A stretch of DNA of 64,000 bases, taken from assembly GCF_000226095.1 (NCBI RefSeq), contig NC_016474.1, positions 1,116,001-1,180,000 of the forward strand, read 5' to 3'. Below, piece after piece: positions 25,849 to 64,000 of the stretch (positions are counted from its first letter, which is position 1; each line of letters begins with the position of its first letter). Source of the DNA: Thermothelomyces thermophilus ATCC 42464 (Eukaryota; Ascomycota; Sordariomycetes; Sordariales; Chaetomiaceae). Made by a program: the position numbers and the translations under genes. Under the pieces are notes generated by a model. The model was not told where the DNA came from. It saw only the letters and a program-made list of their open reading frames with translations, and did not search any database.

Positions 25849-26360
25849 CTTGGCTAATTGGATCCCGATTCCGACCTCACTCGTGTCCAAGTAATATCCG
25901 TAATTAGTGATTCAGTCTCGAAAGTCGACTTGTCGAGATGCGGTTGTTGGGGAAGATGCGGGGGACCCACTGAGCGCTTGCAGATCCAAGCTGCCACAAA
26001 AAAAATGCTGGCCCGGGCGGCAGGCAAGCCGGATGCTGTGGGGGGAGCAAACCCAGCTGTGGTTCTAGCTCTTTGCTAGCCGTTGCCCCGCCAACCGACA
26101 GCGTCTCTTCTGACGTGGATCAAAGCCCACATTTGGTCATTTGCTAGCTTCCGCTTTGGAGAAGCTGCCTGCCGTGTCTCTCTGCACGACGCGAAACGGC
26201 GCCGCAATTCGAAACCTCCAACATCGAACCTGGGTCTCGGCAATCGCATTTCGCGATCCATTGCATCTCTGGGCCTTGCTGTCTTTTGGATAATGTCCTC
26301 GATGCAGCGATGATGATATGATACGATTACTAACAATCGGCCCGCGACACGCTCTTCTTC
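25849..26360. promoter_or_regulatory. Divergent promoter, separase and mitochondrial protein genes
   Basis: A 512-bp region between two divergent start codons. Two CGCGAAA motifs, one on each strand, lie at 26190-26196 and 26249-26255, about 105-170 bp before the separase start. CRCGAAA is the yeast SCB consensus for G1/S transcription factors. That they act here is inference. Confidence 0.4.
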
Positions 26361-29300
26361 ATGGATACACCGCTCTCCCAGGCTGACGCTGTGCGCGGCG
26401 CAGTCTCGTCCGTCGCGACCTGCACCCCCGCGACATCTGCCTTGCTCAAGACTCTATTGCTTCCCAAGGACTCGGAGACCCCGACCGTCGACGACGCGAA
26501 TACTCGACCTGCCGCGAAGACCGCGAATTCTGCCCGATCGAGAACGAACACGGTCACGAGAGCCCCATCGAAACGCGCCAGAGCCGCTGCCGCCCCCGCT
26601 CCCGACGAGGGTCTGTCGGCACGAGAGAAGGCGGCATTGGCGACACACGTCGTCAATGCCACCCTCAAGGCTCTCGGAGAGGCTGCAAAACCCTCCTCGG
26701 CCGCGGCGCCACGACCCGCCCAGGAGGATGACTTGGTCAAGACGGCGACCAAGAACGCGATCCGGCGGTCCAGCTCGGCACCCATGTCGCCCCTGCAGCC
26801 CCGTTCGCTTAACAGGCAGGCCTCCTCTCCCGTCGCTGCTGCAAAACATGCCCGCTCGCCCTCCAAGTCGTCCAGCACAACAAACCTGCTCTCCACCGTC
26901 GAGTGTGCCCGCGTGGCCCTGGCAGCATTGCGACAGTTGCCCGCCTCGGGCAAGATTACTCTCCCCGACCTGCAGCTCGAGTCCGGCATGTCGGCGTTGG
27001 TTGGGAGGTTGATCAACCTAAACCTCCAAGAGCAGGCCGTCAAGGAGCTGAGGATATTGAAAAGGAGGCTGGAGGGGCCTTCGGCCTCTGAGGCTAAGAA
27101 GGCGGGGAAATCGGCCAACTCGGATTGCAAGAATACCGCCCGACTCTTCTCGGACCTTCTCGACTTCGGTTCGGTGAAGGCCTCGGGCGCGCGGCTTCTG
27201 TTGATCATCGCCACCCAGATCCAGGTTCTGCGAGTCTTGGCAATCTCGAAGAAGCCGTCGGCCATCGAGGCGGCCCTACCCTACCTCCGCCAGGACCAGG
27301 CCTCTTCTCCTATCAACTTGCTCCTCGCAGCAGCGAGAGAGGACGGAGCGGACGTCAGCAAGATCGCCAGGCAAACGGAAACCCTGGCCCAATGCCTTCT
27401 GTCGCTTACGCCCAGCGTGTCCAGCAAGGAGGACGGCACGGCGCAGGAGGCCCGACTTAGCATCTCGCCCGCGTCCGCGCTGGAGCTGCAGGCGCTTGCG
27501 CTCGAGAGCCGGCTGCACTGGTGGGGGTTGGCGAAACACAAGGGAGACGCTGAAAAGAATATCATGGTTCCTCTATACAGGTGTCTCGGCGCGTACATGA
27601 GGCGGACCTCGGAGACGCCCAGGTCTAGCTATGTCGTTTGTTCGGAGATCTTCAACCGGATACGCCGGCAGCTCGAAGCCCACGGCTTCCACCCGGCCAA
27701 GGGATCCAGGCAGCCGTTCGCCGGCATCTGCCAGACCCTGGCGACTTTGGCGCGCGACGCGCAGCAGATGTCGGACGCCATCATGTGGGCGACCAAACTC
27801 CGAGAGGCCATGGATCCCGCGGCCGAATCGATAGCAAAGACTTGCGCGGTCGCCGCTCAGCTGCTCTCCCTCCATCTCAAGCAACCTGCCAAGTACCTCT
27901 CGGACGACCAACTGCTCAAAGAGGTTGTTGCCGGCATCCAGGGTCCCTTGCGCGGTGACACTGCCGAACTTGACGAGCTCTTGGTAAACATCTGCGCGGT
28001 TCGAAAAGGCGCGATGCATTATCTACTCACCCTCGCCAGGAACGGCGATAGCGTCTCCCAGCCTCGCCCGGAAACCAAGGAGCTGCTCGAGACATTCATC
28101 CTCCAATGCCCTCGTTTCTGCCTCCGATGGCTCGGAAAGCCCCCCGGGCCCCAGGGAAGTACCAAGGACTACCTTCGGTACGACCAGCGGCGGCAGCTCA
28201 TGCTGCAGTACTTCCCACACGTTCTCGACTCGGCATTCATAACTATCAAGACTTGTTTGGACCAGTCGCGTCTCGCATGGGATCTCATGGACTCGATTCT
28301 CGGCGATTGCAACACCCTCTTGGAGTACACGGGCAGCAACTCGGCGACATCGGATCCTTCAGCGTCATATTATGTCAAGATATCACACTTCTACTACCTG
28401 CAGTACAGCTGCCTCCGACAGCAATCCACCGATCCCAAGGATGTTGCCCCCCTGCGTGCTCTGAGGCGCTCGATTGAGTGCGTCAAGCATCGCTCCAGCG
28501 GGGAGAAAGAGAAGGCACGACTCACATTGAAGCTGGAACGCATGGCAGAGCTCTGTCGGACGCTGGGCAGGGTAGAAGAAGCCCTCGGAGCTCTGCAGGC
28601 CATCCGAACAAGCCTTGTCGAGGATGGTGTCCTGACGTCCGTCGCTAAGGCCCTCGAGACGAAGGCGCCCGCCGTTGCCTGGGCCGCCGACGAGAAGGCT
28701 GAGGGCCTCTCGCGAGCACTACTGGCAATCTCCAAGATGGAGCATGTATGGATCGACTGGACCGTGGACCTCGACGAGACGGAGCGGGCTGCTGCGCTGG
28801 AGCACCGCCTGCGCTTCGTTCTGCTACGGGAAGGATCCAAAGAAGGCGCCGTCAGCCCGGAGCACCCCGTAGTCGATGCGTTGCTCCGAATCTACATCCC
28901 TACCAAATACCCCATCCGGAGACTCCGGGTGCTCCTTCTCCTGCTGTGCTCAGCGCTCGGTAACCTTGACAAAGCCCCCGAGCTCCTCTCGGTCGCTAAG
29001 GACGCCGCGCAAGTCGAGGCATCTGGAGATCTCGGAGAGGACTCGGGCTTGGTTGGCTTTCTCCCACACCTGAAGGCGCTCCACAACTCGCTATCCGCGG
29101 CAGTAGATGCCTACCGCGACCACCAGGCACTCGATGCCTGCATTTCCACCTGGCGCTCGATTATCGCCTCTTGCCAGGACAAGGCAGCACTGGAGACGGT
29201 CATCGACGACGTGCCGGGCCTCTTGGAGTACCTGCAGTCGGTTGCTGACTTTCTCCGCATGAAGGGCCGGGACACCACGCTCGCAGCCGTCTTGGAGCTG

Positions 29301-32300
29301 GCCGCCAGCATCTCGCGGGCGGTCGAGGGCTCGAAGGCGGAAGAGGTGATCCAGCATAGCTCGTGCCTCGCCCTACAATACACTAATCTCGGGCAGTCGC
29401 TGAGGGCGGAACAGGTGTTCCAGGAAGTACAGGAACTGATCAGCGACGAGCTCCGCAGCGAGGTCCTCGCCAGCTTCCACCTCGCCTTCGCGGAGCACTT
29501 CCTTGCCCTCAGCAGTATCAGACAGGCGGAAGACCATCTTGCCCAGGCCCAGCTCGCCTTCAACGTCGATGCCGCCGCTTCTCAAAAGCACAACCGCGCC
29601 GAGAGAAGGCGACTCGTCGCATATGCCTGCTACCTCCAATCTCTCATCGCCCTGGAACGCGGCGACTCCCACCACGCGCTCGCCTACTCCCGCGACAGCG
29701 TCCGCACGCTCTTCCAGGATTGGGCCAAACTGGAGTCCCGGCTCGTGCCGAGGACCCTGCCCGAGCCGAACCGTGCGGACGACCAGACCATCGATGTATC
29801 CGCGGTAACCATCGAAGGCGATACCCTTCAGCAGAGCCCGGGACCGGAGTTCTGGCGGCTGTTCCACTGCCTCTATCGCAACGTCTTCCGGCTCTCGTCC
29901 ATGTACGCTCATTTGGGCATGTTTCAAGAGACCATGTACTACGCCGAGCAGGCCCTGAAGATGGCCAAGACCGTCAACTCGGAATTCTACAACGCCGAGT
30001 GTGCCGCCTGGATCGGCTCTGTCTCCTGGAGGGCCGCCAATGCCACAAAGTCACTCGAGATGCTGCAAGAAGCCGCAGCGCTGCTTCCCGACGACAACCG
30101 CTCGTACTCGTCGGCGGCGCTGGCCTGCCAGATTGGCTCCATGTATCTCTCCCAGAACAATATGGAGGGCGCTAAGCTGTTGCTGGAACGGGCCGAGGCA
30201 ATCGCGCACAACCTCGCTGCGAGCCCGGCTGCCGAGCAGCGGGCAGATACCGCCGCCGTCGAGACCGAAATGGCGAAGTTGAGCATCACAAAGAAGCCTA
30301 CGAGGGGTGGTGGTGGTGGTGGTGGTCGTGGTGGACGTAAGGCTGCTGTTGCGAAGACGCCAGGCAGGAAAGCGGCCAAGGGCGCGATCAGAACGAAGGC
30401 GACGGCCCCCGTTCCCGAGCCGCCGGTGGTGGTGGTGGCCGAGGAGGACGCTCAGCTGGCCAAGCTCCGAGCGTCCATCCTCGTCCAGAAAGCCGTGTCC
30501 ATGCTCCGACAAAAGGAGTGGGCGGCAGCCCAGGCCGCTCTCATCGAGGCTACGGCTGCCTCGAAGGCATCCGGCCTGCTGCCCGTGAGACAAGTCACCA
30601 TGGCCTCGTGTCTGCTGGGTATGAGCATGGAGCAGATGGCTCAGGACCCCGTGTTCTCCGTCATCCAAGACTCGACCATCTCGTTTCCCGCTCTCTCGGG
30701 TTCCTCCGAAAAGCCCTCGCCAGTCCGCCCCAAGGCCTCGTCGCCTAAGAAGTCACGAGCCGCCGCGGCGAGCCAAGGACAAGCCGTCAGGGAGGCCGCT
30801 CCGGGGCTGTACGTGGACAATCTGCGGCAGGCCCATGACTACCTGCTCGAAGCGCACTCGGTGGCAGCGCTGAGCGGGGACGCGAGCCTAATTCACAGGA
30901 TCTCGGGCATGCTCCAAAACGTCAGCCTGTACCTGACGGCCACCTCGGCCAAGGCCAAGGCGGCCGTCCACTCCGCCCAGACGTCGTACTCGGTCGAGCT
31001 CGCCCGGAACCTGACCTGGCGTCGCGAGCGGAAGGCGCTGCTCCAGGAAAAGAACGCGAACAAGAGCGACGGACTGCAGTGGCCGGCGACGCTCCAGTCA
31101 GCGAGCACCAGGCGGTCGAGCCTCGGGTTCACGCTCGACCTGCACAAGATCCAGCGGGACTATATCGACATCGTCCCCAGGTCATGGAACGTCATCTCCA
31201 TCTCGCTCAGCGAGGGCGGCCACGACCTCTGCATCACGAAGCTGCAGGCCGGGCAAAACCCCTTTGTCATCCGCCTGCCCCTCGAGCGGGCCAGCTCGCG
31301 CGACGCAGACAGCGACGTCTTTGACTTCCAGCAGGGCCGCGCCGAGCTGCTCGAGATCATCAAGCAGATCAACAAGACGTGCCACGACTCCCGGGACATG
31401 ACGGTCAAGGGCGCCAAGGCGGCGTGGTGGGCCGAGAGGGAGGCGCTGGACGAGCGGCTGAAGGAGCTTCTGGACAACATCGAGACCATCTGGCTGGGTG
31501 GCTTCAGGGGCATCTTCTCGCAGCACGTCCGCCGGCCGGAGCTCCTGGCGAGGTTCCAGAAGGACTTCCTGACGATCCTGGACAAGCACCTGCCCTCGCG
31601 GCGGCAGGTGCGCGGCAAGAAGACGACCAAGCCGGAGCAGACGGCCAAGGCCACGCTGGACCCGAACGTGCTGGAGCTGTTCATCGGCCTGGGCGACGCC
31701 ACGGAGCCCGGCCGCGACTTTGACGACGAGCTCACCGACCTGCTCTACTTTGTCGTCGACATCCTGCAGTTCCACGGCGAGCGCAACGCCTACGACGAGA
31801 TCGACTTCGACTCGATGGTGGTCGAGACCATGGACGCCCTCAACGCCTACCACTCGGCCGCCCACGCCGCGGCAGCCGAGGACGCCCCGGCCAACCTGCA
31901 CACCATCCTCGTCCTCGACAAGGCGCTCCACGTCTTCCCCTGGGAGTCCCTCCCCTGCATGTGGGGCCTCGCCGTCTCCCGCGTGCCCTCACTCGCCTGC
32001 CTCCGCCGTCTGATCCTCGACTGCCGCCGGCCGGGCGAGCGGGAAGGCCGCCCGGACGGCCACCACGCGTCCGTCTCCGCAGGCGGCACCTACATCCTCA
32101 ACCCCTCGGGCGACCTGACGTCGACGCAGGCCACCTTCTCCCGGCCGCTGGCCGCGCACCTGCCGTCGCCGGCCTGGCGGTCCCTCACGGGCCGCCCGCC
32201 GACCGAGCAAGAGTTCGCGACCGCGCTGGCCGAGTCGCAGGTGCTGCTCTACTTCGGCCACGGCTCGGGCGCGCAGTACATTCGCGGGCGCACCATCCGC

Positions 32301-32744
32301 CGCCTCGACCGCTGCGCCGCCGCCGTCCTCCTCATGGGCTGCAGCTCCGCCGCGCTGGCCGACCACGGCGACTTCGAGCCCGCCGGCCCCGTCTGGAACT
32401 ACATGATGGCCGGCTGCCCCGCCGTCGTCGGCACCCTGTGGGACGTGACGGACCGCGACGTCGACCGCTTCGCCGCCGGCCTCGTCGAGGAGTGGGGGCT
32501 CCTCCCCAGGGGCACCTTCCCTTCCTCTTCTTCTTCCCCCCATTCCTCTTCTTCTTCTTCTACTACTACCGCTGCTACCGCTGCTGCTGCTGCTGCTGCT
32601 GCTTCTCGTGCTGCCGGTGGCGGCGAATATGGGGACGCTAGCCTCGTCGAGGCGGTCACGAGGGCGAGGGGGAGGTGCAAGTTCCGCTTTGTGACCGCTG
32701 CGGCCGCGGTCGTGTATGGCATTCCTGTGTATGTGGAGCGGTAA
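26361..32744 (+). CDS. ESP1: Separase (cohesin-cleaving cysteine protease)
   Basis: Separase cleaves the cohesin kleisin at the metaphase-anaphase transition and is held by securin until then. A single uninterrupted frame encodes 2,127 residues, in the usual size range. The C-terminal C50 protease domain is clear: catalytic His in LLYFGHGSGAQYI (His about 1967) and catalytic Cys in VLLMGCSSAAL (Cys about 1994), preceded by TYILNPSGDL and followed by WNYMMAGCPAVVGTLWDVTD. The large N-terminal part is a helical repeat scaffold. A Gly/Arg-rich loop (about 1315-1325) and a Ser/Thr/Ala run (about 2055-2085) are low-complexity inserts, the second lying between the protease core and the last segment (ARGRCKFRFVTAAAAVVYGI). 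It shares a 512-bp promoter with the gene to its left. Confidence 0.95.
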   Translation: MDTPLSQADAVRGAVSSVATCTPATSALLKTLLLPKDSETPTVDDANTRPAAKTANSARSRTNTVTRAPSKRARAAAAPAPDEGLSAREKAALATHVVNATLKALGEAAKPSSAAAPRPAQEDDLVKTATKNAIRRSSSAPMSPLQPRSLNRQASSPVAAAKHARSPSKSSSTTNLLSTVECARVALAALRQLPASGKITLPDLQLESGMSALVGRLINLNLQEQAVKELRILKRRLEGPSASEAKKAGKSANSDCKNTARLFSDLLDFGSVKASGARLLLIIATQIQVLRVLAISKKPSAIEAALPYLRQDQASSPINLLLAAAREDGADVSKIARQTETLAQCLLSLTPSVSSKEDGTAQEARLSISPASALELQALALESRLHWWGLAKHKGDAEKNIMVPLYRCLGAYMRRTSETPRSSYVVCSEIFNRIRRQLEAHGFHPAKGSRQPFAGICQTLATLARDAQQMSDAIMWATKLREAMDPAAESIAKTCAVAAQLLSLHLKQPAKYLSDDQLLKEVVAGIQGPLRGDTAELDELLVNICAVRKGAMHYLLTLARNGDSVSQPRPETKELLETFILQCPRFCLRWLGKPPGPQGSTKDYLRYDQRRQLMLQYFPHVLDSAFITIKTCLDQSRLAWDLMDSILGDCNTLLEYTGSNSATSDPSASYYVKISHFYYLQYSCLRQQSTDPKDVAPLRALRRSIECVKHRSSGEKEKARLTLKLERMAELCRTLGRVEEALGALQAIRTSLVEDGVLTSVAKALETKAPAVAWAADEKAEGLSRALLAISKMEHVWIDWTVDLDETERAAALEHRLRFVLLREGSKEGAVSPEHPVVDALLRIYIPTKYPIRRLRVLLLLLCSALGNLDKAPELLSVAKDAAQVEASGDLGEDSGLVGFLPHLKALHNSLSAAVDAYRDHQALDACISTWRSIIASCQDKAALETVIDDVPGLLEYLQSVADFLRMKGRDTTLAAVLELAASISRAVEGSKAEEVIQHSSCLALQYTNLGQSLRAEQVFQEVQELISDELRSEVLASFHLAFAEHFLALSSIRQAEDHLAQAQLAFNVDAAASQKHNRAERRRLVAYACYLQSLIALERGDSHHALAYSRDSVRTLFQDWAKLESRLVPRTLPEPNRADDQTIDVSAVTIEGDTLQQSPGPEFWRLFHCLYRNVFRLSSMYAHLGMFQETMYYAEQALKMAKTVNSEFYNAECAAWIGSVSWRAANATKSLEMLQEAAALLPDDNRSYSSAALACQIGSMYLSQNNMEGAKLLLERAEAIAHNLAASPAAEQRADTAAVETEMAKLSITKKPTRGGGGGGGRGGRKAAVAKTPGRKAAKGAIRTKATAPVPEPPVVVVAEEDAQLAKLRASILVQKAVSMLRQKEWAAAQAALIEATAASKASGLLPVRQVTMASCLLGMSMEQMAQDPVFSVIQDSTISFPALSGSSEKPSPVRPKASSPKKSRAAAASQGQAVREAAPGLYVDNLRQAHDYLLEAHSVAALSGDASLIHRISGMLQNVSLYLTATSAKAKAAVHSAQTSYSVELARNLTWRRERKALLQEKNANKSDGLQWPATLQSASTRRSSLGFTLDLHKIQRDYIDIVPRSWNVISISLSEGGHDLCITKLQAGQNPFVIRLPLERASSRDADSDVFDFQQGRAELLEIIKQINKTCHDSRDMTVKGAKAAWWAEREALDERLKELLDNIETIWLGGFRGIFSQHVRRPELLARFQKDFLTILDKHLPSRRQVRGKKTTKPEQTAKATLDPNVLELFIGLGDATEPGRDFDDELTDLLYFVVDILQFHGERNAYDEIDFDSMVVETMDALNAYHSAAHAAAAEDAPANLHTILVLDKALHVFPWESLPCMWGLAVSRVPSLACLRRLILDCRRPGEREGRPDGHHASVSAGGTYILNPSGDLTSTQATFSRPLAAHLPSPAWRSLTGRPPTEQEFATALAESQVLLYFGHGSGAQYIRGRTIRRLDRCAAAVLLMGCSSAALADHGDFEPAGPVWNYMMAGCPAVVGTLWDVTDRDVDRFAAGLVEEWGLLPRGTFPSSSSSPHSSSSSSTTTAATAAAAAAAASRAAGGGEYGDASLVEAVTRARGRCKFRFVTAAAAVVYGIPVYVER

Positions 32745-46695: not shown

Positions 46696-47890
46696 CAACG
46701 AGGCAAGACAGAGCTGAGCACTTTGAAATAGTCAGAGCCTTGTTGGAGTCTTTGGAGACTAGAGGGCTTCAGCCTTTGATTGGACGCCAACGGGATAATA
46801 TCTCTCCCGCTCTTGCCGCTCGAGGCGCTCTCGTTTCCAGCTGAAGGTAATTAATAAGGCCTCAGACACACCATTGAAGTGTGACGAAGATACGTGTTTG
46901 CCCTCTGCGGCCCATCTTGGAATACCGTCTCATGTTGGGCGCCCAAGGGTCTTAGAGTCCAGCAGGAACATCGAGTAATTACTACCTTACACAAGTGTGT
47001 GTGCTGCAGAGTGCACCAGCGAATTAACCATCTTCGTCAATCAACAGGTGTCTGCATTGACGCCTTACCGTTTTTTGGGTCTCGGATTGGCAAATGATTG
47101 TCGTGACGATCGTGGCCAGGCTCATGTGCCAAAACGCCGGCAGTGTACACTAATATGTACATAATTACACTCACTACCTAATTACTACATACACCGAACG
47201 GAAAGGGCTTCCTCGAATCTCGGCTACGCAACTTGTCCCCGAAGTGGGTATTGTCTCGCCCTGTTCTTGTGAAGGGGGAGTACCCGTAGGTTGGTTCTAC
47301 AAGTACATACACCATGTTGTCTACTGCGGAACTCGCGGCAAGCATGGAATTGGGGGATACTTACTACAAGGAGCCGCAAGAAGACATCCCACGCGGTTCG
47401 ACCCTACATTTTTGAGCGCTGGGCGCGCTTCAGTCCAAATCAAATGACTGGTCGACGACGCGAATTCGAAGGGTCAAAGCGGCCAGCTCCCTAGTGTAAT
47501 ACGTATGGCGCCTCTATGGCGCGCGGGAGGTCTTGTCCTCGGCGATGATCGGGCTACCATGCTCGCCTTCTGCTTCCTCCGCGGTTTCCAGATCACAGAG
47601 GCACCCGTATGTGTATATATTAAGTTGTCCAGTGGCCCTCCCCCCCTTCCCCCTTTCTGAGCGTCTCGAACCCCAGAGCCAACAAGGGGTCTGCCCTTCT
47701 CTACCTGCGGGAGACTGAGAAATTTCTCCGAGGATAGCTAAGGTACTTTAACGTGCCTCGATTCTGTGTGAGGTATGCCAATAATCCCGCCCCGTGGCCA
47801 CAGCAGAGAGACCGTTGTTGACAAACTGGGTGCCCCAGCCCTTGAAACCGTGGGACTGGACTATCAAAACAATTGACACCGCCCGCCATC
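46696..47890. other. Divergent intergenic region, coiled-coil and NLR genes
   Basis: About 1.2 kb with no supported gene. It should contain the NLR promoter, and perhaps that of the coiled-coil gene. Confidence 0.45.
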
Positions 47891-50800
47891 ATGTCGGACC
47901 CCAGTCTCTACACGGTTGGATGGATCTGTGCCATCGAAGCCGAGTACGTTGCGGCACAGAGCTTCCTCGATGAGGAACATGACGGTCCCGAGTCCGTCGC
48001 GACCCGTGACAACAACGACTATACTCTGGGGCGGATGGGCAGGCACAACGTCGTCATTGCCGTCCTGCCGGATGGCGAATACGGCCTCACTTCGGCCGCT
48101 ACCGTGGCCCGAGATATGGTTCACAGCTTCCCCAACATCCGCGTCGGCCTGATGGTGGGTATCGGGGGCGGCGCGCCCAGCGCCAAACACAACATCCGCT
48201 TGGGAGACATCGTCGTCAGCTCCCCTGGCGACGGAGAGGGCGGCGTGTTTCAGTATGACTTTGGAAAGGCCGTCCAGAACAAGAAGTTCGAAGTGACACG
48301 CCGCCTCGACCAACCCCCACAGGTCGTGCGTACGGCGGTGAGCGGTCTCAAGGCGCAATACAGGCGGAAGGGTCACAAACTTGCCGAGGCCGTTGATGGC
48401 GTTCTCGCCAACAACACGAGGCTGAAAGCCACGCATGCGCGGCCGGACCCCAAGTCGGACATTCTCTACCAGAGCGGCTATGTTCACAGCGATCCGAACA
48501 GGGACTGTGCCCAGATCTGCAACGCTTCTTGGTACCAGAAAGTCCGCACTCCACGTTCCGTACAGGAGGACAATCCGGCAGTCCATTACGGCCTGATTGC
48601 TTCTGCCAACCAGGTCATGAAGGATGCATCGGTCCGGGACAGTCTAATTGCGGAGAAGGATGTCTTGTGCTTCGAGATGGAAGCGGCCGGATTGATGAAT
48701 CACTTCCCCTGTCTGGTCGTTCGGGGTATCTGCGACTACTCGGACTCGCACAAGAACAAGGCGTGGCAAGGCTACGCTGCCATGGCAGCCGCCGCCTACA
48801 CCAAGGACTTGCTGGCCCGCATTGCCCCGAACAAGATCGAGGCGGAGCGGAAGATCAAGGACGCCCTGGCTGACGGTCAGTGAGATCGGGACGGTTGCGC
48901 CGTCCAGCTTATTATCTCCCAGTCGTGTTACTTAAGCAGCTAGTATCTTACTTCTAATCTTCCCGCCTGAGTGTGTTCCTGACAAGATGTGTTCTCCTAG
49001 TGCTTAATGGTGTCGAGAGAGTCGAGGAGGGAGTGAAAGCGGTGGGACTCAAGCTAGACCAACAGGAGGATGGCGCCATCCTGGACTGGGTCGCGCCCGG
49101 TGACTGGCACCGCCGCCAGCATACCGATTACTTGAATCAAAGACAACCGGGAACGGGCGAGTGGCTCCTGACCTCGGATTGCTTCCGGGACTGGTTGGCG
49201 GCAGAGAGCCAGACTCTGTTTTGCGTAGGCATCCCCGGGGCCGGCAAGACGATCCTAACGTCTGTTGTCGCGCAACATCTCCAGAGCGGGGCCCCGGCCC
49301 GAATGGCAGCGGCCGGAGCCGTCGGCGTCGCTCTCGTCTACTGCAATGTCGAATTGCAGCACGAACAAGGAGCCGAGCACCTCCTCTCCAGCATGCTCAA
49401 GCAGCTGACCCAAGGGCTACGCCCCTTACCGGAGTGTGTCAGGAAGCTCTACGAAAACCACAAAAACTGCGGGACTCAGCCGTCACTTGCCGACATCTCG
49501 GGGTGCCTGCGGGAAGTGGCCAAGGGGTATGCCCGCTCCTTTGTACTTGTTGACGCGCTGGACGCGTACCGGCCTCGCGGTTCCCACGCTCGCGAGAGAC
49601 TCGTATCCGAGCTCTTCGGCCTGCAGAGAGATTGCGGCACGAACCTCTTCTTCACATCGCGCCGCATCCCTGAGATCGAGGATCTGTTCAGCAAAGCACC
49701 GGGTGTTGTCTCCCTCGAGATCGAGGCGCACAAGGGCGACATCGAGCGATTTCTGGACGGCAACATGTCGCAGCTCCCCAAGTTTGTCGACCGCCGTCCT
49801 GACCTCCAGAAGGCCATCAAGGAGGCCATCGTCACGGCCGTATGCGGAATGTTTCTGCTCGCCAAGCTCTGGCTCGACGCGCTGGCGAAGATGCACAGCC
49901 CCAGCGAGCTCAAGAGCACGCTGGAAACACTCAAGGGCGGGGCCGAAGCCTGCGAGCGAGCGTACGAGGAAACCATGGAGCGGCGTATCGAGGACGAGCA
50001 GTTCGCCCGGCGCGTCCTGTCGTGGATCGTCTGCGCCAAGAGGCCATTGACCACCATCGAGCTGAAGCACGCCCTGGCGGTTCGGTCCTCCGACACGAGT
50101 CTGGACGGGGAGAACGTGCCGGATACCGACGACATTGTGTCCTGCTGTGCGGGACTGGTCACGGTCGACAAGGACAGCGACGTCATCCGGCTCGTCCACC
50201 GGTCGGCGTACGAGTACTTCCGACGCCAGGACTCACGGGCGCGATGGTTTGCCGATGCCGAGGCCCGCATCGCCGAGATCTGCGTCACCTACCTCTCCTT
50301 CGACGCCTTCAAAGAGGGGTTCTGCCCCTCTGACCAAGAGTTCGAGGCCCGCGTCCGGTCTCACCCGTTCTACAGCTACACCGCGCGCTATTGGGGCTAC
50401 CATGTTCGCGAGTGCCAACAGTTGGGCGAGAAGGTCCGGGCGTTCTTGTTGGGAAGACATCCAGGGCTTGACGCTCGACGCGAGGCGTCGAGCCAAGCGA
50501 TGATGGCGGGCAGCGAATACGCCCCGTGGCCGGGGTACAGCCAAGACATCCCGAGGAACATGACGGGGCTGCATCTGGCGGCGTGCTTCGGGGCGGCGAA
50601 CGCGGTCAAGGAGCTCATTGCGTCTCAGATGGACTGCGCGGATCTGCGGGACAGCTACGACCGGACGCCGCTGTCGTGGGCTGCCGCATTCGACCACAGA
50701 GACGTGGTCGAGCTCCTGCTGACCGAGGGGAAGGCCGACCCGAACTGGCGAGACAAGGATGGCCGGACGCCACTCTCGCTGGCTGCCGAATACGGTTATG

Positions 50801-51828
50801 CCGCCGTTGTGGAGCGGCTGCTGAAGGAACAGACGGTCGACGCGAACCGGAAGGACAAGAACGGCTGGACCCCGTTGACGTGGGCCGCACGGAACGGCTG
50901 CGTGGATGCAGTCCGTCTGCTTCTCGACAAGGCGGAGCTCGGGGGGACCGAAAGCCACGCTCCGCTGTTGGTCGCTGTGCAGAATGGGCATGCGACGGTC
51001 GCTGAGCTGATCCTGTCGTCTCCCAACGCCGATCGGGATTGGAAAGCGGAAGGGTCCAGAAAGGCGCGGCTGTGGGCGGCTGAGAAGGGCGACGGCCAGG
51101 TCGACATGCTGAATCGGCTGATGGAGCAATACGGGATTGATGGTGCCAGCCTCAAGGATGAGAACGGACTCACGCTCCTCATGAAGGCCGTACAGAACGA
51201 GGATGAATCGGCCGTCAGGCAGATGATGATGCACGAACGGGCCACTGCCTATCCAAACGAGAAGGACAAACTCGGCCGGACAGCCCTGCTGCTGGCAGCG
51301 GAGTACAACAGAGAGTCGATCTTTCGGTTCCTATTTGGCTCGCCCGGGGTCGACGTCGACTGCTCTGACGACCTGGGCCGGACGCCGCTGCTGACGGCTG
51401 CGCGGCACGGCGCCGCGGAGATTGTCAAGTTCCTGCTGGACTCGGGCAGGGCCGGGGACCCCGACCGAAAGGACAAGCACGGCAACACGGCGCTCTATTG
51501 GGCCGCGCAGGGCGGCCATTACGACGTTGCCGAGCTGCTGCTCGACTCGGGCAAGGTCGACGTCAACTCGAAGAACGGGACGGGGAGCGTCGGGCGCACG
51601 CCGCTCGCCGAGGCACAGAAGTGGTCCGATCGGAGCGCGTCCCATTTGCGCACGGCAAAGCTGCTCGCGGAGCGGGGCGGCATCAGCAAGGAGTTCAACG
51701 AGTCGGTCGGGCTGGACTTCGACTTGTCGTTCTTTGACAAGTTGCGGGCGGATACGGACTCAGAGACCGATTCGGACGACTCAGATATGAGCGAGGAGCA
51801 GGGCGGGGATGATGATGCTGATGACTGA
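47891..51828 (+). CDS. NOD-like receptor: nucleoside phosphorylase - NACHT - ankyrin repeats
   Basis: Two exons, 47891-48875 and 49001-51828, join in phase (ALAD then [10 protein letters not shown]) to give 1,270 residues. Residues 1-320 form a PNP_UDP nucleoside-phosphorylase-like domain ([66 protein letters not shown]), a known N-terminal effector domain of fungal NLRs. A NACHT NTPase follows: Walker A GIPGAGKT (about 405) and Walker B-like FVLVDALDA. From about 850 to 1225 there are roughly nine ankyrin repeats ([20 protein letters not shown] and similar), then an acidic tail. Fungal STAND proteins of this type sense non-self and can trigger cell death; its ligand is unknown. I chose the ATG at 47891; the in-frame codon at 47873 is TTG. 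Without the intron an in-frame TGA follows at 48881. Confidence 0.92.
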
Positions 51829-55777: not shown

Positions 55778-57130
55778 ATGGCAGGAACTGTACGCCACAA
55801 TAGCAACAATAGCAACAACGACAACAACAACAACAACAACATGGCCAAAGCGAATTCACAGAAGGCTGCCTGCGACCGCTGCCGCGGACAGAAACTCCGA
55901 TGTATCTGGGATCCCAAGGAGCCGCAGTGCCAGCGCTGTGCGAGGGCAAATGCCGTCTGCACCATTCCTCCCCCGCGGCCCATGGGCCGACCTCCGCGAC
56001 AATACCGCAGCCAGAGCAGCAGCAGTCACAGCCGCGGACAGACCCAGAGCCTGTATAGCTGGAGCGAGGAGAACGCTACCAGCACCGCGCCCGTCTCTGA
56101 CGAGGATACCGACATCGCCATGAACTCCGCCAACGTGCTCTCCGACCCCCTCGACTTCCTCCCATGGTAACCCCCCCCATCTCGCCACCTGTTCTCTACG
56201 CTCTCTCGCGGATCTAACTAACGCTTAGCCAGGTTCCCCGAGCCCGACGGCCTCAGTCTCTCTGCCCCACGAGGGACATTCCCTACACCAGTCACCGCGC
56301 CGGCTCCTATACCCAACGGAACACCGAACGTTAACGGAACCCGGCCCTTCGGTCAACAAAATGAGATATTCGCGTCACCGCTCAATAATGGAGGGAAACC
56401 GGCCGAGGGAAATCAATCAAACCATAGCGGGGTGGACGAGGCCGACCAGATGGATTACACTACCGTGGAAAACGGGGGGCCGGGCGACGACCAGATCCAG
56501 CTCCTCACGGAGCTGTGCGAGCTTAACGTAGCCCTCTTCCAACACCCGCTACATCGCGAAAAAGACAAAGCAGGTTTGCGAACCATGCTGGCTTCTCACT
56601 CCGAGAACGCGAGACCGCAACAACCCGCAGAGGCCCCTTCGGCTGACAGCTCCTCAAACGGCTCCAACGGCTCTTCCGTCATTGAGCTGAACGCCCGCGA
56701 GCTACGTACAGGAAACCTGTTTGAAATGACGTGCCGGCTCATGGATATCGTCACACGGATCCGAGCCCAAGAAGAGGCAGCGGCGCAGGGCCAGGAACGC
56801 TACGACCGGTCGACTGCGCTTATAGCTCTCAGTTGCTACACCCGGCTAGACGTTCTATACTCGCGCGCTCTCGACATTCTGGTACGGATCCGTAATAACG
56901 GCCCCATCCCCGAGGGCTCCCACCACCTGATGCCCGAGTTGGTGATTGATGGCTTCTCGATGAAACGGTGTCTTGACCTCCAGCTTAACTTTCTGATTTA
57001 CCTTCACGGACAAGCGCGGGAGCGGATCCGGTCATGTATCCGGAGTGCGGAAGGGACGGCTAGGGTCGGACGAGATAGGCGGGATTCAGCTAGGCAGGGG
57101 AGCCCCGCGCCAGCTAGGTTTGATTTATAG
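55778..57130 (+). CDS. Zn2Cys6 (zinc cluster) transcription factor
   Basis: Two exons, 55778-56166 and 56233-57130 (66-bp intron), join in phase at DFLPWFPEPDG to give 428 residues. The binuclear zinc cluster CDRCRGQKLRCIWDPKEPQC followed by QRCARANAVC has the C-x2-C-x6-C...C-x2-C-x6-C spacing. It is preceded by an Asn-rich run and followed by a basic, Ser-rich linker. The C-terminal half (NLFEMTCRLMDIVTRIRAQE, ALIALSCYTRLDVLYSRALD, ILVRIR) resembles the regulatory part of AflR-type activators. These control secondary-metabolite genes, but no biosynthetic cluster is seen here. The start could instead be the ATG at 55841, which would drop only the Asn-rich run. It could be a local regulator of the accessory genes around it; that is inference. 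Confidence 0.85.
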
Positions 57131-59897
57131 GATTTACGCAGTGGAGCTCACACTGGTACACCAGAGCCGAAAAGGCTGGGGTACATCCACTACTCCGTAC
57201 ACTAGTGTATACGCTCCCGTCTTGGTCGGCTTGGCCCTCGATTACGAGTCATTTTTCTTGTATATACTTTTTTTTTACCGGGCGTCCTCACGCAAGCCGA
57301 CCAGTTCCTTGGCTCTTGGCATTGTCCTACACTTGTGCTACATTTTCCGGTGTCGGCCATAGAAGGCGGGGGAAACAACAGGGGTGTAAGTTGCGGGCCA
57401 CACAACACAAGGGCCCCAACCAAGCCCTAACAGCGAAGGATGACTGTCAATCTCACATAACCAGGTAGGCAAATACATAGGTTCTGGGTATCGACCCCTG
57501 GATGGAGGCGGCTTTCGTCCCTTCACTACCTCTACTATGCCTAATGAATGTAAAGCACGCTTGTGATGCCTGCTAGTCATTGAAGAGAAGCTTCTCTTGA
57601 GTGAGCCTCTGAGATCTGTATGTATAATACACATTGAGGAGCGAAGGAAACAGCTTCGCTTCTCTATACTAATCCTCCAACAGTCATTCCACCGACCATT
57701 GGATTCACCGGCCATCGGATACCACACTTCTGCCCTCCCGCGGTGCTCTTCCCCTAATTATATCTCGTACGCAGTTAGGGTACCTTCGCCCTAGAGGTAT
57801 GACTGAATCTGTAAATCCGTATTTCGTATACCAGCAGTAAATCGCTCTCGTGGCAGGCTACGATACGATGCTACGATGCTACTATTATGGCTACGATGGC
57901 TACGATGGGTCCGACGACATATGATGATTGGACGTAGGTACCCTGCACCCTGTATGTATATCAAGCCCACCTGTTGCGATGGAACGAAGCTTCGTCATGC
58001 CCGAAGCTTCGTCATGCCGACTATAGGCCTCGACGCGAGGTGCGCGAAGCGCACAGACGGGAGTACGGATTACACAGTACACCACAGTCGGGGTATTGAA
58101 CCGTTACCCCTCTCATCTGTGCGCCAATCATGGCCCGCGATTCGGTCTAGACCCTCGATTTGGTCAGTGATTACGCTATTAAGCCTTGCTACAACGGTGC
58201 ACACGTGATTGGTGCGAGGACTGCAGTACTACGCTATGAATGGCTCAACTCTGAAAGTCCACAGAAATAACGGTTCCATTAACGCTCAGGGAAATAGAGG
58301 TTCCACAAATGAAGTGTAAAAAGTTTGTTAGCCTTAACTCTATTTCCCGGTGGCGTATCCCGCGGCTTGGCGAGCGTATAAGCTTATCCTCCAAAGGGAC
58401 CACCCACTCTATCTGCCTAACCATTCCCCCTCCTCCCCCCTCCCGGGCGCATGGGTCGCTTTTTCTTGAGCCTCGAAACCCTACAATACTACGAAGGATT
58501 TCTACGCGATTCTAGTCCAGCCACTTTGCATTACCGGCTGTCTCCGCTCTTTAGGGCCCTCTGTCAGCAGACTTGTAACATCGGAGGTGGGCAAATCGAG
58601 CAGGCACACACACACACGGTATGCACCTCAGGTACGTACCTACCTCAGTTACGTATGACTCAGCAACGTGGAATGAAGTGGCCGAAAATGCATCATCCCG
58701 AATCTGCCCCTAGTCACAGCAGACCCGAGGGACTTGCTGTGAGATCATACAATACCTGATGGTGCTTTGTTTTCCTTCCGATTCCGGACAATCCAACCAA
58801 CGGCTAAGCTCCCTAGGTACCTAGGTACCTAAGGTAAGGCAACCTCTTACCGTAGCGCTTCCTACATGTTTCCGTTAATTAGACAACGAGGAGAACAGTC
58901 CACCTGATCGTTACGCTGAGGAGGATCATTCGAGGGGCGCTAACCAGGCAGGACTTGATAAGGTACGGTACTTTACCTTACCATTCAAGCAAGCGGGGAA
59001 GTCCACTTTGATTGCTCGCACGTGTTAAGTACCGCAAGAGGGCAACACCTCTCATGTACTCGTCGATGTCGTTGTCGGAAGTGGAATCGAAGTCCTTGAA
59101 ACAAGGTCACGATGCAACCCGTGCTCGCTCCGCGCTTTCTCCCTATGTCCAACCTGAGCCGTGCCATTGCTCCGCTCACAATAGAGCGAAAGCGCGGCTT
59201 GGTTGGATGGGGACATACTCCGATCCTCAGCTTACCATGTTCTAGGCAGCTCACCCATCTGGTTCTAGCTCGGCATTTCCTCAAAAGAGGAGGCGGCGAG
59301 GAAACCTCATCCGACGGCCACTCCGTTTTACCCGCTGCTGGGCGACAAGATGACATGGAACCTCAAGTTCAAGCTCTTACTAGGGGTAGGCAAGCATTTT
59401 TGAACCGGCTTCCCCGGTTGTACTACAGAAATCAGATAATTAAGCCTTATGCGTTCACCGAAATGTCGACGACTTTGTTGTTGCTCGTGGCAAATGGGAG
59501 GGGAGCCTTGGAAAGCGGACGGTGCAGAGAGGTGGCAGCAGTCCAAAACGATGAACCAGAGATAAAATCTGCGATACGTGCTGGGTATTATTATTACAAG
59601 TGGCAAGCTCCAGTAATTACTGTGTGCACGGGCGACTAGAGAGCACCAGCACTGCGTATGGAGTGTAGACAGCAAGCCATAATTATGACTAATTAGGATT
59701 CAAGAAAAGCATTTCTAGATTGCCCGAGAACCTCGATAAGAACCTATCGACGCTAGGAAAATACATGTGTTACGCCGCTCTCTAGTCAGGCATGCTTAAA
59801 TATCCTCCGATTAGTTAGCGCAAGAAGATTTGTATGTATCCCAAAGTGGATTGGTAATATCTTCTCATCCGAGGTACTTAGGTGGACCCCTGAGTGT
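57131..59897. other. Gene-sparse region between the zinc-cluster and gasdermin-like genes
   Basis: No supported gene in about 2.8 kb. Frames at 59112-59639 (+) and 58985-59356 (-) lack recognisable domains. Local repeats: CTACGATG units at about 57858-57907, a 16-bp direct repeat CGAAGCTTCGTCATGC at 57985-58000 and 58002-58017, a GTACGGATTAC copy at 58063-58073, and CCTAGGTACCTAGGTACCTA near 58812-58831. Confidence 0.4.
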
Positions 59898-60863
59898 TCA
59901 GTCTTCATCCAGATCATCATCGCCGTCATGCTTGTCCGCGGCAACGCGAACAATCTGACATTCGGCCCCGTCAAGATCAACCCCAGTCTCGACATCTATT
60001 AAATCCCAGTACTCGGGCAACTCGGGATCCTCATCCTTCAACCCCGCCAGCTCGGCTTCGAATGATTCAACCTGCCCCTCCTCCTCCTCCTCCTCCTCCT
60101 CCTCCTCCTCCTCCTCCCTCTTAATAATCCTGACCTTCCTCTCCCCATCGGCATACAAATCCCCTTCGATCCTGGGCCGCCTCTGCCCCGTGACCTTCTT
60201 CCTCCTGTACAGCACCTCGCGCAGGCTATAGGCCAGCACGAACGGCCCCTCGATCCTACCCGCCGACCGGCCCTCCATCGCCTCCGTCGCCTCGGCGCCC
60301 ACCCCGGCACCGACCGGTACCCCGCCGGCAGCGGTGGTGATCAGATCCGTGAGGAAGTGCAGGCGGACCCCGCGCGCGCGCGCGCCCGACACCAGGTACT
60401 CGGCGCCGTGGGTGGCGATCTGCAGCCCCGTGACGAGGTACAGGTTGGCGGTGAAGCGGCTGTCGCGGAGGGCGGCCTGGACGGCGGGCTCGGCGAAGAG
60501 GGCGGCGACGTCGGCCGCGGACGGGTGGATCGTGCGGGTCTCGAGGCGCGGGATCCGGTAGGCGGCGCCGCCCGCCGTCGAGTACGCCACGCTGAGCTCG
60601 ACGGGGTTCTGGCCGAGGAGGCCCGAGAGGAAGGAGAGGAAGACGGTCGGCTGGAGGGAGCGCGCGGCGTGGGCCGACCGGGTCGCGTCCGCTTCCGGGA
60701 CGACGGTCGCGGCGGACTGGAGGCGCCGGACGGTCGGAGAGTTGGGGTCGTTGAGCGGGAAGTCGGGCTCGCGAGGGGACCTGATCAGGTTCCCGAGCGC
60801 GATGGGCCCCGTCGGAGCCTGATCGCGCGTTGGAGCGAGGAAGTAGGTTCTCTTGGGATGCAT
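59898..60863 (-). CDS. Gasdermin-like protein (fungal RCD-1/HET-Q1 type)
   Basis: A single exon encodes 321 residues. It opens KRTYFLAPTRDQAPTGPIAL and GNLIRSPREP, as I recall for fungal gasdermin-like proteins. The later pattern follows the gasdermin pore-forming domain: a strand LYLVTGLQIATHGAEYLVSG, a glycine-rich part (GGVPVGAGVGAE), then FVLAYSLREVLYRRKK, matching the conserved strand that ends the N-terminal domain. A basic linker, a run of about 13 Glu and an acidic tail of about 70 residues follow. Gasdermins insert in membranes and kill the cell once the C-terminal part is cleaved off; in Podospora the subtilisin-like HET-Q2 cuts HET-Q1. Here an S8 protease gene lies 2.1 kb away in divergent orientation. 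The family call rests on pattern and context, not on a search. Confidence 0.7.
   Translation of the reverse strand: MHPKRTYFLAPTRDQAPTGPIALGNLIRSPREPDFPLNDPNSPTVRRLQSAATVVPEADATRSAHAARSLQPTVFLSFLSGLLGQNPVELSVAYSTAGGAAYRIPRLETRTIHPSAADVAALFAEPAVQAALRDSRFTANLYLVTGLQIATHGAEYLVSGARARGVRLHFLTDLITTAAGGVPVGAGVGAEATEAMEGRSAGRIEGPFVLAYSLREVLYRRKKVTGQRRPRIEGDLYADGERKVRIIKREEEEEEEEEEEEEGQVESFEAELAGLKDEDPELPEYWDLIDVETGVDLDGAECQIVRVAADKHDGDDDLDED
60077..60117 (-). repeat. GAG/GGA trinucleotide repeat coding poly-Glu in the gasdermin-like gene
   Basis: About 13 perfect CTC units on the plus strand encode consecutive glutamates just after the basic segment VRIIKR. Being a pure repeat, its length may vary among strains. 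Confidence 0.9.
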
Positions 60864-63000
60864 CTTTCAGGTTTTGAGGTGGTGTAGGGGAAGCTACATT
60901 AAGGATAATCATAAGAGGAATGAGGTTGTAAAGTACCTAGCACCCGTGTATTATTCTTTTTTTTTGTTGTATTTATTTCTATTAATTAGTAGAATGTTTA
61001 AGAGAACGTGGAGGCATCCGAACCCCGCTTTCGAGGGACCTTGTAGAAACCTTCAAATCTGCAAACAGAAACCTTCAAATTGCTGCTGGCCTAAATGTTA
61101 ATATCAATGTATGACAACTACACTAATTACCTTAGGTATATACTGTAGCAAAGTACGGTAAGGTAACCCTTACGATGGTGTTGTGATAAGTAGTCAACAT
61201 TGAAGAGAATTTCAGTTTCTATTTGGAGCGTACTCGGTCGTAGTATTATGTCAGACATTGAGGGTTCACGAATTGGTTTCACGTTAATTATGTCAGAAGC
61301 ATATTGTGTATCTATCTAACGCTTCACTCGAGCGACCTACAAGCAACCATAATTATAACGAGACATGCTTGCTAAACGCATTGGCCATTTCGTATGTCTA
61401 TATATCTACCTATATAGCGCTCGTTTCCTTCTTTCCCTAGGTACCTTACCAAGTTTACACGGGCATTTTGTTGAACTTTCGAAGCCACCGCTAGAGAGTC
61501 TCTTTCTTCTGACCCTTCTATTGTTCGAGTCTTCCGACTGCGTTCTAGACATCATGATACGACCCAGAGCTGCTTACGGTAAGTAGTCCAAGTTAAGGCA
61601 CCTAAGTTGTTGTGTGCTTATGAATAAAGGAACTCATCAAAAGCCCATTAGCTGTCACTGCACAGCCCCACTGAGGCCGCCCGCACCCGTTTACATAGCC
61701 ACCGTAATATCTATATACCGTTTGCCTAGGCGGTTCAGGGTCTGATGTGTAAACACTCGGCCGTTGCACTCTTCATATTCTCAGTCCTGTCCCCGGTGCT
61801 ATCGCATGATGAGCCATTGAATTTGTAGAAGGAAGCTCTGGCGGTGAAAACAACGTATGTACTACTGTGTAAGTACGAAGCGCGCCGCTGAACCCAGGAG
61901 CGGGTTATCCACCCTTTTCTTGGACGTTGGCCACTGGCCTCGCCTGATGTGTTGGTCGGTTATGCGGCCCGCCGTACGGCCCGCTTGGGCTGCCTGGTGG
62001 AGGTGGACCTCGGCTTCCTGAGCCACCAATTGCGGCGGGGCCCCCCTCCTAGTGGTCCACTGAGGCGAGGGCGCCTGCCTCCGTTGCCGCTGGACTCCGA
62101 GACTAGTTACCGAAGACATGCACTCGGAACTACGGGTTGAGCTATTTGTGCTCCTCGTTGGAAACGGGGAATTCAGAATATCCGACGTTTGGTTGGTTGC
62201 CACGCTCACCAACCTGCAGATCAGCCAGGAAATGATGGCGGTGACGACAAGATGTGTGAGTTAGGGGCAGCGGCGACGTCGTTTGCTGTCGCCCGACGCG
62301 GGGGTGAGTGGTCGCCATCGACGCCGGCTCGGCCAAACAGAGCAGGAAGTCCAAAGGCACCACAGAGGGGAGTGCCAAGTGCACGAGAGCTTCGTGCATT
62401 GCGTGTCTTGAAACTCGACGGGAAGATTCCAAAGGGAATGTACTCCCAGCCCCGGAAGTCAAGGTCAACATGGCGACATCAACACGCCAGCGCTTGAACG
62501 ATCCCTCGTCGCTATGGCAAGGCGAGGGCTCAGGTAGGAGGGGTCAATCCCACAGGCCCCTCAAGAAGGAGTATCTCGCTTAGAATACCTCTTCGAGCTG
62601 AATCAGCTCGCCCACCCCTGCTCGATAACAACGAACCAACCACAAACGCTACCGCGCGGCTACGCACAGCTGGGACGTCCAACATGTATGAATGTACGGA
62701 TGTATGTACGGATGTATGTACATACGAAGTATATATCATATGGGGGTTACTACCCAAAATCTTCGAGCCCTACCGACATCTGCTTAACATTCAGGAGTAC
62801 CCAGTTACCGACAGTATCATTAGCTGAGAGACATCGGATATCCCGCTACTCACTTCCCCTCGTTGGCCAGATAATACCTTGGAAAAGGCCGTGAAGCCCG
62901 AGGCTGCTGACGGTGTTTCTCCTCACCTCCGTCTTATCGGCATACGACCAAAGGTCCGACATTGAAACCCCCTGGCGTCGAGAGGAGACCGACAATTGCC
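60864..63000. other. Divergent region between gasdermin-like and protease genes
   Basis: About 2.1 kb. The gasdermin side (to about 61.9 kb) is AT-rich with no gene. A plus-strand frame at 62308-62583 has a Cys-containing stretch (KCTRASCIACLETRRED) and could be a decayed or unrecognised exon. At 62690-62725 lie repeated GTATGTACGGAT units. Exons of the protease upstream of 63001 cannot be excluded. Confidence 0.4.
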
Positions 63001-64000
63001 ATGTTGCAGATTAGAAAGGCTCAGACGGTTCCGATCCCGGTGGGACGCAGCGAGAGACGCCAAATAGAAGCACTGCCCACGTTCGCTCCTGGCACGCTAA
63101 TCTTTCTCAATCATGACCCCGCGAGCGAAGGACGTCTGTCAGCGTCTGCAACAAGTCTTGTTGTTCAGGAAACACGTGCCCGTTCTAGCTCAACAGGCAG
63201 GGCACTTCCCGAATCGGCTTCTCTCAGGGAACCTTACGACAAAGAACACCGCGAGAGCCGTTCGAGCCCTCCCACCAAGTCAAGCGACCGGGATCTGGCC
63301 TCCGAATCGACCCCCAGCGAAGACACTCTCGGCGAACAACGTAGTAAGACGCTGGAAGAGTCAGGGCCGAAACCCGTACTGGTAAACGCGAGAAAACAAG
63401 ACACAGAGGAGTTGGGATCCGGGGTGGATAACCCGATATTGATACCTTCGGGCGTAAACCCGGGCCCGCCCAAGGAGTCAGAGCCGAAATCATCAGTAGT
63501 TAATAAGGGTTCCATCTCGGATGCAACTCAACAGCTCGTAGACGATACAAGGTATGTAAGTACATACAACTCGTTCAGGTTTTCATCCAATAAAGACGAA
63601 TAGACCTGAATCACTAACTATCAACTGCTAGTGTGGATATCTGGTTTGGCGACATCGAAAAAATCAATGAAGAGATCCTCGAACCCTACAGACGACAGGC
63701 CTGCAAGAGGGTCAAAGTAGGCATCCTGGACACGGGCATTGACATGAAGAACACGGCATTTCACAAAGCGGAGGTCCGGCAGCGCATTAAGAAGCGCGTC
63801 GATTTCTGCGACCCTAACGGCAAAGGAACTGGGAGAGACAAGTGCGGCCATGGCACGCATTGCGCCGCTCTCATAAACCGAATCGCCCCTGCAGCCGATA
63901 TTTACGTCGGGCGGGTGGCGATTGACTTTGACTCGGGTGTGGATGAGAACGTCGTAGCAAAGGTAATAAGCCAGAGAGAGAATTGTCAGCCATGTCCCAT
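63001..64000 (+). CDS. Subtilisin-like (S8) serine protease, cut by the window edge
   Basis: Exon 1 is 63001-63551 (start MLQIRKAQTVPIPVG) and exon 2 is 63632-63962, joined across an 80-bp intron with a CACTAAC branch site. A GTAATA donor at 63963 suggests a third exon beyond the window. About 180 residues of low-complexity, Ser/Glu-rich linker precede the conserved lead-in IWFGDIEKINEEILEPYRR and the catalytic Asp (VGILDTGID, about 217) and His (CGHGTHCAAL, about 257). The catalytic Ser lies outside. The stretch IAPAADIYVGRVA is typical of fungal intracellular S8 proteases of the type paired with gasdermin-like genes or fused to NLRs. No signal peptide is seen from this start. Upstream exons are possible; the upstream in-frame codon at 62962 is TTG. 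Confidence 0.82.

Follow-up and report, generated by a model that had tools for sequence, protein, structure and literature searches.

Gasdermin genes have been recorded in large numbers in fungi (about 1900 in about 400 genomes) and most are described as lying beside protease genes, about 80% of the gasdermin genes in two-gene clusters with a protease (PMC10989679, PMC10197012). In Podospora anserina, HET-Q1 is given as a protein of 278 residues and HET-Q2 as a 388-residue S8 protease thought to cut it at F238, removing 40 residues (PMC10989679). The genes het-Q1 and het-Q2 are reported to be idiomorphs, two different genes that occupy a single locus (PMC12881547), and systems of this kind have been proposed to arise via a rearrangement that leaves a constitutively active sensor (PMC10197012). 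The other protease class associated with gasdermins in fungi is CHAT (PMC10989679, PMC10197012), and a CHAT-TPR protease of P. anserina is reported to activate the adjoining gasdermin, while the activation of RCD-1 is described as the meeting of two alleles, with no cleavage (PMC12881547). Here we describe a divergent pair of genes, one for a gasdermin-like protein of 321 residues and the other for an S8 protease, at the end of a 64,000-nucleotide stretch of the genome of Thermothelomyces thermophilus ATCC 42464 (the window; G000:C3:1116001-1180000). We consider it likely that the two form a cluster of a fungal gasdermin (fGSDM) with a HET-Q2-like (Q2-L) S8 protease, in which regulated cleavage would remove an acidic tail. 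The enclosing genome (7 contigs, 38,744,216 bases) was used to read past the window end, and all genome-wide searches refer to this one genome rather than to relatives or other strains. The features of the locus are as follows.

59898..60863, minus strand: gasdermin-like gene, 321 residues, single exon (open reading frame, coding bias, profile match to RCD-1/HET-Q1)
60117..60863, minus strand: residues 1-249, predicted pore-forming part, net charge +10 (global hhalign 83.2%, E 1e-6, 194 columns; charge)
59901..60116, minus strand: residues 250-321, acidic C-terminal tail, net charge -32, predicted inhibitory piece (sequence and charge; role by likeness to HET-Q1 as described in PMC10989679)
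60077..60117, no strand: perfect (CCT/AGG)13.7 trinucleotide repeat, giving 13 GAG codons, the poly-Glu run (TRF, codons)
60864..63000, no strand: shared divergent intergenic region (longest plus-strand open frame in 60901-63000, 118 residues)
63001..63551, plus strand: protease exon 1, Ser/Glu/Pro-rich N-terminal region (reading frame, splice donor; 0 Pfam families)
63632..63962, plus strand: protease exon 2, where the S8 domain starts, including Asp217 and His257 (PF00082, E 1.6e-6 on the exon open frame; residues)
63963..64000, plus strand: start of protease intron 2 (Ser446 is on exon 3, beyond the window at G000:C3:1180069-1180827)

An earlier note on this DNA, made from the sequence alone, had claimed a 321-residue protein on the minus strand, and the open reading frame was found at that place with a coding bias. 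Over its first 240 codons the GC content at codon positions 1, 2 and 3 is 0.69, 0.55 and 0.92, and the frame's codon score of 0.18 falls inside the training range of -0.20 to 0.34 (23 long open reading frames), the other five frames scoring 0.05 to -0.54. A score based on synonymous codons only gave 0.018 for this frame versus 0.050 for one opposite-strand frame, in a test without discriminating power.

The likeness to gasdermins was assessed by comparison with a reference profile of three PDB chains, namely RCD-1-2 (residues 31-231), RCD-1-1 (residues 106-234 only) and HET-Q1 (residues 10-215). These chains were surfaced by a query composed after the window protein had been seen, in the likeness of a fungal protein family; the query is consequently not independent of that protein and was used only to surface PDB chains, all later statistics resting on the letters of the three chains. 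Its top five PDB matches were to chains of RCD-1-2, RCD-1-1 and HET-Q1 (best E 2.4e-12), with bacterial gasdermins and many antibody chains below significance. Global hhalign of the three-chain profile with the 321-residue protein gave 83.2% (E 1e-6, 194 columns) in a collinear, near full-length alignment spanning residues 8-221, and this score was matched by none of 300 shuffles and none of 441 decoy fragments, which take in open reading frames of at least 180 residues from the stretches around other S8 genes. Local hhalign gave 58.7% and 67.2% in two comparisons, and a PTGPI..G..I segment near the N-terminus and a Y-x-V-T-G segment are common to the 321-residue protein and RCD-1-2. The gasdermin homology suggested by the earlier note is thus upheld by profile comparison, and at the level of sequence the protein is supported as a putative fungal gasdermin homologue along the pore-forming domain. 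A recurrent weak PDB match to the CRISPR-associated Csx15 (9tet_A, E 0.0095 to 0.033) spans residues 34-110 only and was taken as chance, and a motif pattern was likewise attributed to chance, having 9 matches, the window gene included, versus 9 in the reversed control. Scans of prokaryote and viral contigs revealed no relative.

The predicted gene model for the protease is our own reading of frames and splice signals. From an ATG at 63001, three exons (63001-63551, 63632-63962 and C3:1180069-1180827), separated by two GT..AG introns, 80 and 106 bases long, encode a product of 546 residues. The S8 motifs DTGID (D217), HGTHCA (H257), ASNNG (N350/351) and GTSVATP (S446) are all present, and the spliced domain matches PF00082 with an E of 8.3e-21. 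The earlier note had seen the Asp and His motifs in a divergent gene 2.1 kb away and had left the catalytic Ser to be sought beyond position 64000: both motifs were found, with 2137 bases between the start codon of the gasdermin frame and the protease ATG, and Ser446 completes the catalytic set. An S8 gene with Asp, His and Ser beside an fGSDM gene is what is looked for in a Q2-L protease, to which class we assign the product on its motifs, and the proposed pairing of a gasdermin with a protease holds in view of the profile homology of the one and the complete catalytic set of its neighbour. Ahead of the S8 domain are 208 residues, the first 205 of them rich in Ser, Glu and Pro, and inspection by eye of the protein's start (MLQIRKAQ...) showed no obvious signal peptide. 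No additional protease exon was recognised in the intergenic region, where the longest plus-strand open frame in 60901-63000 has 118 residues. Within the same region a short ATG-initiated stretch (61554-61584, plus strand) with a terminal GTAAGT donor-like site was noticed by eye, and may represent either a small exon upstream of the gene or chance.

Ten S8 places, the one in the window included, were shown in the genome. Six of the other nine were examined with flanks of about 10 kb and three with flanks of about 1.5 kb only. A phmmer search (--max) around these nine genes, with the window protein as query, gave no convincing match, although a divergent or intron-split gasdermin could escape it, and this negative is weak because phmmer also misses the CHAT-linked frame described below. 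By hhalign, open reading frames of at least 180 residues around the other S8 genes reached at most 26.7%, or at most 11.2% against the profile extended by the window protein.

The pair resembles HET-Q1/HET-Q2 in combining a tailed gasdermin with an S8 protease and in profile homology over about 200 residues. It differs from that system in the sizes of both products, with 321 residues and a 72-residue acidic tail compared to the 278 residues and 40 lost residues given for HET-Q1, and with 546 residues, including those ahead of the S8 domain, compared to the 388 given for HET-Q2 (PMC10989679). It also differs in arrangement, the two window genes lying side by side in one genome and not as the idiomorphs reported for P. 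anserina (PMC12881547). A gasdermin gene less than 10 kb from an S8 protease gene is consistent with the fGSDM/Q2-L clusters as described (PMC10197012, PMC10989679), although, unlike in some of these, no ANK, TPR, WD40 or NLR part was found in the window protease by Pfam. The pore-forming part is also homologous in sequence to RCD-1-1/RCD-1-2 of Neurospora crassa, from which the window protein differs by its long acidic tail; moreover, no close second copy of it was found by single-sequence genome search. Overall the pair has the look of an ordinary cluster rather than of an allorecognition derivative. As such it adds one more case to a pairing known from many fungi and confirms a known theme. 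The literature searched contained no paper joining gasdermin with Thermothelomyces or Myceliophthora, the primary survey (PMC8851545) lying outside that search.

As CHAT is the other protease class linked to fungal gasdermins, the genome was also searched for CHAT, exon by exon, with scoring of first-look candidates only. There was one match at E up to 0.1 (C5:1466288-1467382), inside an open frame of 1213 codons, and the same locus (L043, G000:C5:1466285-1471257) contains a divergent gasdermin-like open reading frame, at a distance of 512 bases from where the CHAT open frame ends. This arrangement is like that of the P. anserina CHAT-TPR/gasdermin pair; unlike in that pair, the CHAT protein here matches TPR only below the Pfam cut-off, and the locus is separate from that of the S8 pair. 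The CHAT-linked frame has 274 residues from its first ATG (L043:4436-5257) and a layout like that of the window protein, with an acidic tail (net charge -16) that has seven GAG codons at its start. Compared alone with the window protein it was not significant, and with the three known chains it scored weakly (5.6%, third of 443; 1.4% in another comparison). Once the profile included the window protein, it ranked first of 442 (77.3%, E 2e-5, 194 columns), ahead of a decoy at 11.2%, and its score was matched by 0 of 300 shuffles. The two gasdermin-like proteins are alike at 51 of 219 aligned positions (23%). The window protein hence bridges the CHAT-linked frame to the known chains, and the two genes are best read, from these alignments, as fungal gasdermins that differ strongly from each other, one having an S8 and the other a CHAT protease as its neighbour. 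A profile of these two sequences found nothing in the PDB at E up to 10, and single-sequence genome searches with either protein found no paralogue. Weak genome matches to the window protein at three loci (L012 to L014) are confined to its residues 218-319, on the poly-Glu/tail side, and another (L015) overlaps a frame that resembles a dehydrogenase by eye.

The acidic tail reported in the earlier note was confirmed as the 72 residues 250-321, with a net charge of -32 compared to +10 for residues 1-249, and the protein accordingly has the short C-terminal piece looked for in an fGSDM instead of a large inhibitory domain. That note had also called the poly-Glu run between the pore-forming part and the tail unusual; the run is present, and is explained as a trinucleotide microsatellite, the plus strand carrying at 60077-60117 a perfect (CCT)13.7 array (TRF) that contains its 13 identical GAG codons. 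Runs of at least seven Glu occur in 4 of 249 distinct open reading frames of at least 200 residues in the DNA examined, two of the four being the two gasdermin genes, a count that is not a fair background rate because one other carrier (L012) was fetched for its own Glu run. Masking of the basic N-terminal part by the acidic tail would be a reasonable mode of inhibition given these opposed charges. One may extend this to an electrostatic lock of the lineage, in which a highly acidic tail having GAG repeats at its core would shield the basic membrane-binding face of the pore-forming part in both divergent gasdermins, S8- and CHAT-linked, and in which repeat slippage could tune the strength between strains, an idea that we regard as possible but doubtful.

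We propose that the gasdermin is synthesised in an inactive form of 321 residues, in which the basic N-terminal ~245 residues would be the pore-forming part and the acidic tail of ~72 residues would hold it inactive. The presence of both genes together requires that the protease be inactive at rest, and a signal would free it from restraint, for which its Ser/Glu/Pro-rich N-terminal region is the sole candidate seen. The freed protease would then cut the gasdermin roughly at residues 236-250, just ahead of the poly-Glu run, a plausible junction because a basic stretch there gives way to 13 Glu. With the tail departed, the N-terminal part may bind acidic lipids, oligomerise and perforate the plasma membrane, and the cell would die, an outcome that could serve in defence or allorecognition.

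Several results weigh against this account, and some would be expected if the 321-residue protein were not a gasdermin but an unrelated, lineage-specific fungal protein with a superficial sequence likeness. Searches of Pfam (0 families at E up to 10), NCBIfam and PADLOC returned no family for it, and the Gasdermin model PF04598, whose sensitivity to known fungal gasdermins was unchecked, gave no match at E up to 10 to the protein or in the whole genome (0 first-look candidates). No gasdermin chain was found by phmmer of the whole protein or trimmed pieces against the PDB. Among 2165 open reading frames, plain hmmsearch with a hidden Markov model of the three chains placed it seventh (E 8.2), while phmmer with RCD-1-2 placed it second (E 0.83) and phmmer with RCD-1-1 or HET-Q1 left it outside the six best shown. 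Comparisons by hhalign with single chains were weak (0.9% with HET-Q1 and 13.2% with the RCD-1 pair, versus 95.6% for HET-Q1 with the RCD-1 pair as control), and in pairwise alignment, where its identity to the three chains is 14-22%, one of the 441 decoys outscored it with RCD-1-1 and one with HET-Q1. Single-sequence genome searches with RCD-1-2 and HET-Q1 did not recover the gene, an empty result that is uninformative without a positive genome. Nevertheless, the collinear profile alignment, as good as which there was no shuffle or decoy, and the top rank of the CHAT-linked frame once the window protein joins the profile argue for a gasdermin, and we judge an unrelated protein to be very unlikely.

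A further point against the account is that no sensing domain (ANK, TPR, WD40 or NLR) was recognised in the protease by Pfam, exon 1 having 0 families and the remainder only PF00082 (E up to 0.01), and a "self-contained" switch, as the earlier note had it, is for this reason unproven. Such an absence is common, because only roughly a third of Q2-L sequences are described as having annotated architectures (PMC10197012), and a sensor is no prerequisite for the class, HET-Q2 itself being given as an S8 protease of 388 residues (PMC10989679). The missing sensor and the intergenic gap of 2.1 kb would both suit a real gasdermin whose activator is another protease, or which is activated without cleavage as in RCD-1, the S8 neighbour not being its activator. 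We consider this unlikely, however, as the adjacency fits the fGSDM/protease clusters published (PMC10989679, PMC10197012) and the window protein is long-tailed, whereas RCD-1-1 and RCD-1-2 are given as only 257 and 244 residues in all (PMC12881547). It is also conceivable that the locus serves allorecognition in the genuine sense, as het-Q1/het-Q2 do, with the two linked genes varying between strains and death following when unlike strains fuse: fGSDMs are listed among the gene families recruited for allorecognition (PMC10197012), and the GAG microsatellite in the tail could, we infer, vary in length. This is quite unlikely in our view, given that het-Q1 and het-Q2 are reported as idiomorphs (PMC12881547) and both genes lie adjacent in one genome here, and the non-self recognition switch of the HET-Q1/HET-Q2 type put forward in the earlier note is not supported as worded.

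Other features of the region were observed. Approximately 8 kb from the gasdermin gene is an NLR-like gene or gene pair (47846-51828, plus strand), with a PNP_UDP_1 frame (345 residues) followed by a 956-residue frame containing NPHP3_N (NACHT-like), a winged helix and ankyrin repeats; PNP_UDP proteins are described as products of het genes in Aspergillus fumigatus (PMC11138114). Between it and the gasdermin gene lies a Zn2Cys6 transcription factor gene (55778-57130, plus strand; Zn_clus E 8.6e-8, first frame). Together with the short GT..AG introns, these two neighbours mark the DNA as that of a filamentous fungus. Directly downstream of the protease, on the opposite strand, is a non-ribosomal peptide synthetase-like reductase (AMP-binding, PP-binding, NAD_binding_4; L009:7486-9999, minus strand, G000:C3:1181486 onward). 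The motif TACCTAGGTACCT, with overlapping palindromes, occurs at 58810-58830 and 61434-61446, with 4 matches (at most 1 mismatch) versus 0.02 expected in the window, and TACCTAGGTACCTA has 44 genome occurrences (overlapping matches, both strands counted) versus 0 for the reversed control. Elsewhere in the window, a 2136-residue open frame (26334-32744, plus strand) has the look of a candidate separase.

If our reading of the pair as an fGSDM/Q2-L cluster is correct, the industrial thermophile T. thermophilus would possess a pyroptosis-like module of two genes, whose protease has no recognised sensor, as well as a CHAT-linked counterpart. Gasdermin death triggered by an S8 protease could then be compared with that triggered by a CHAT protease in one genetic background, and the role of the acidic tail as the inhibitory part would become testable.

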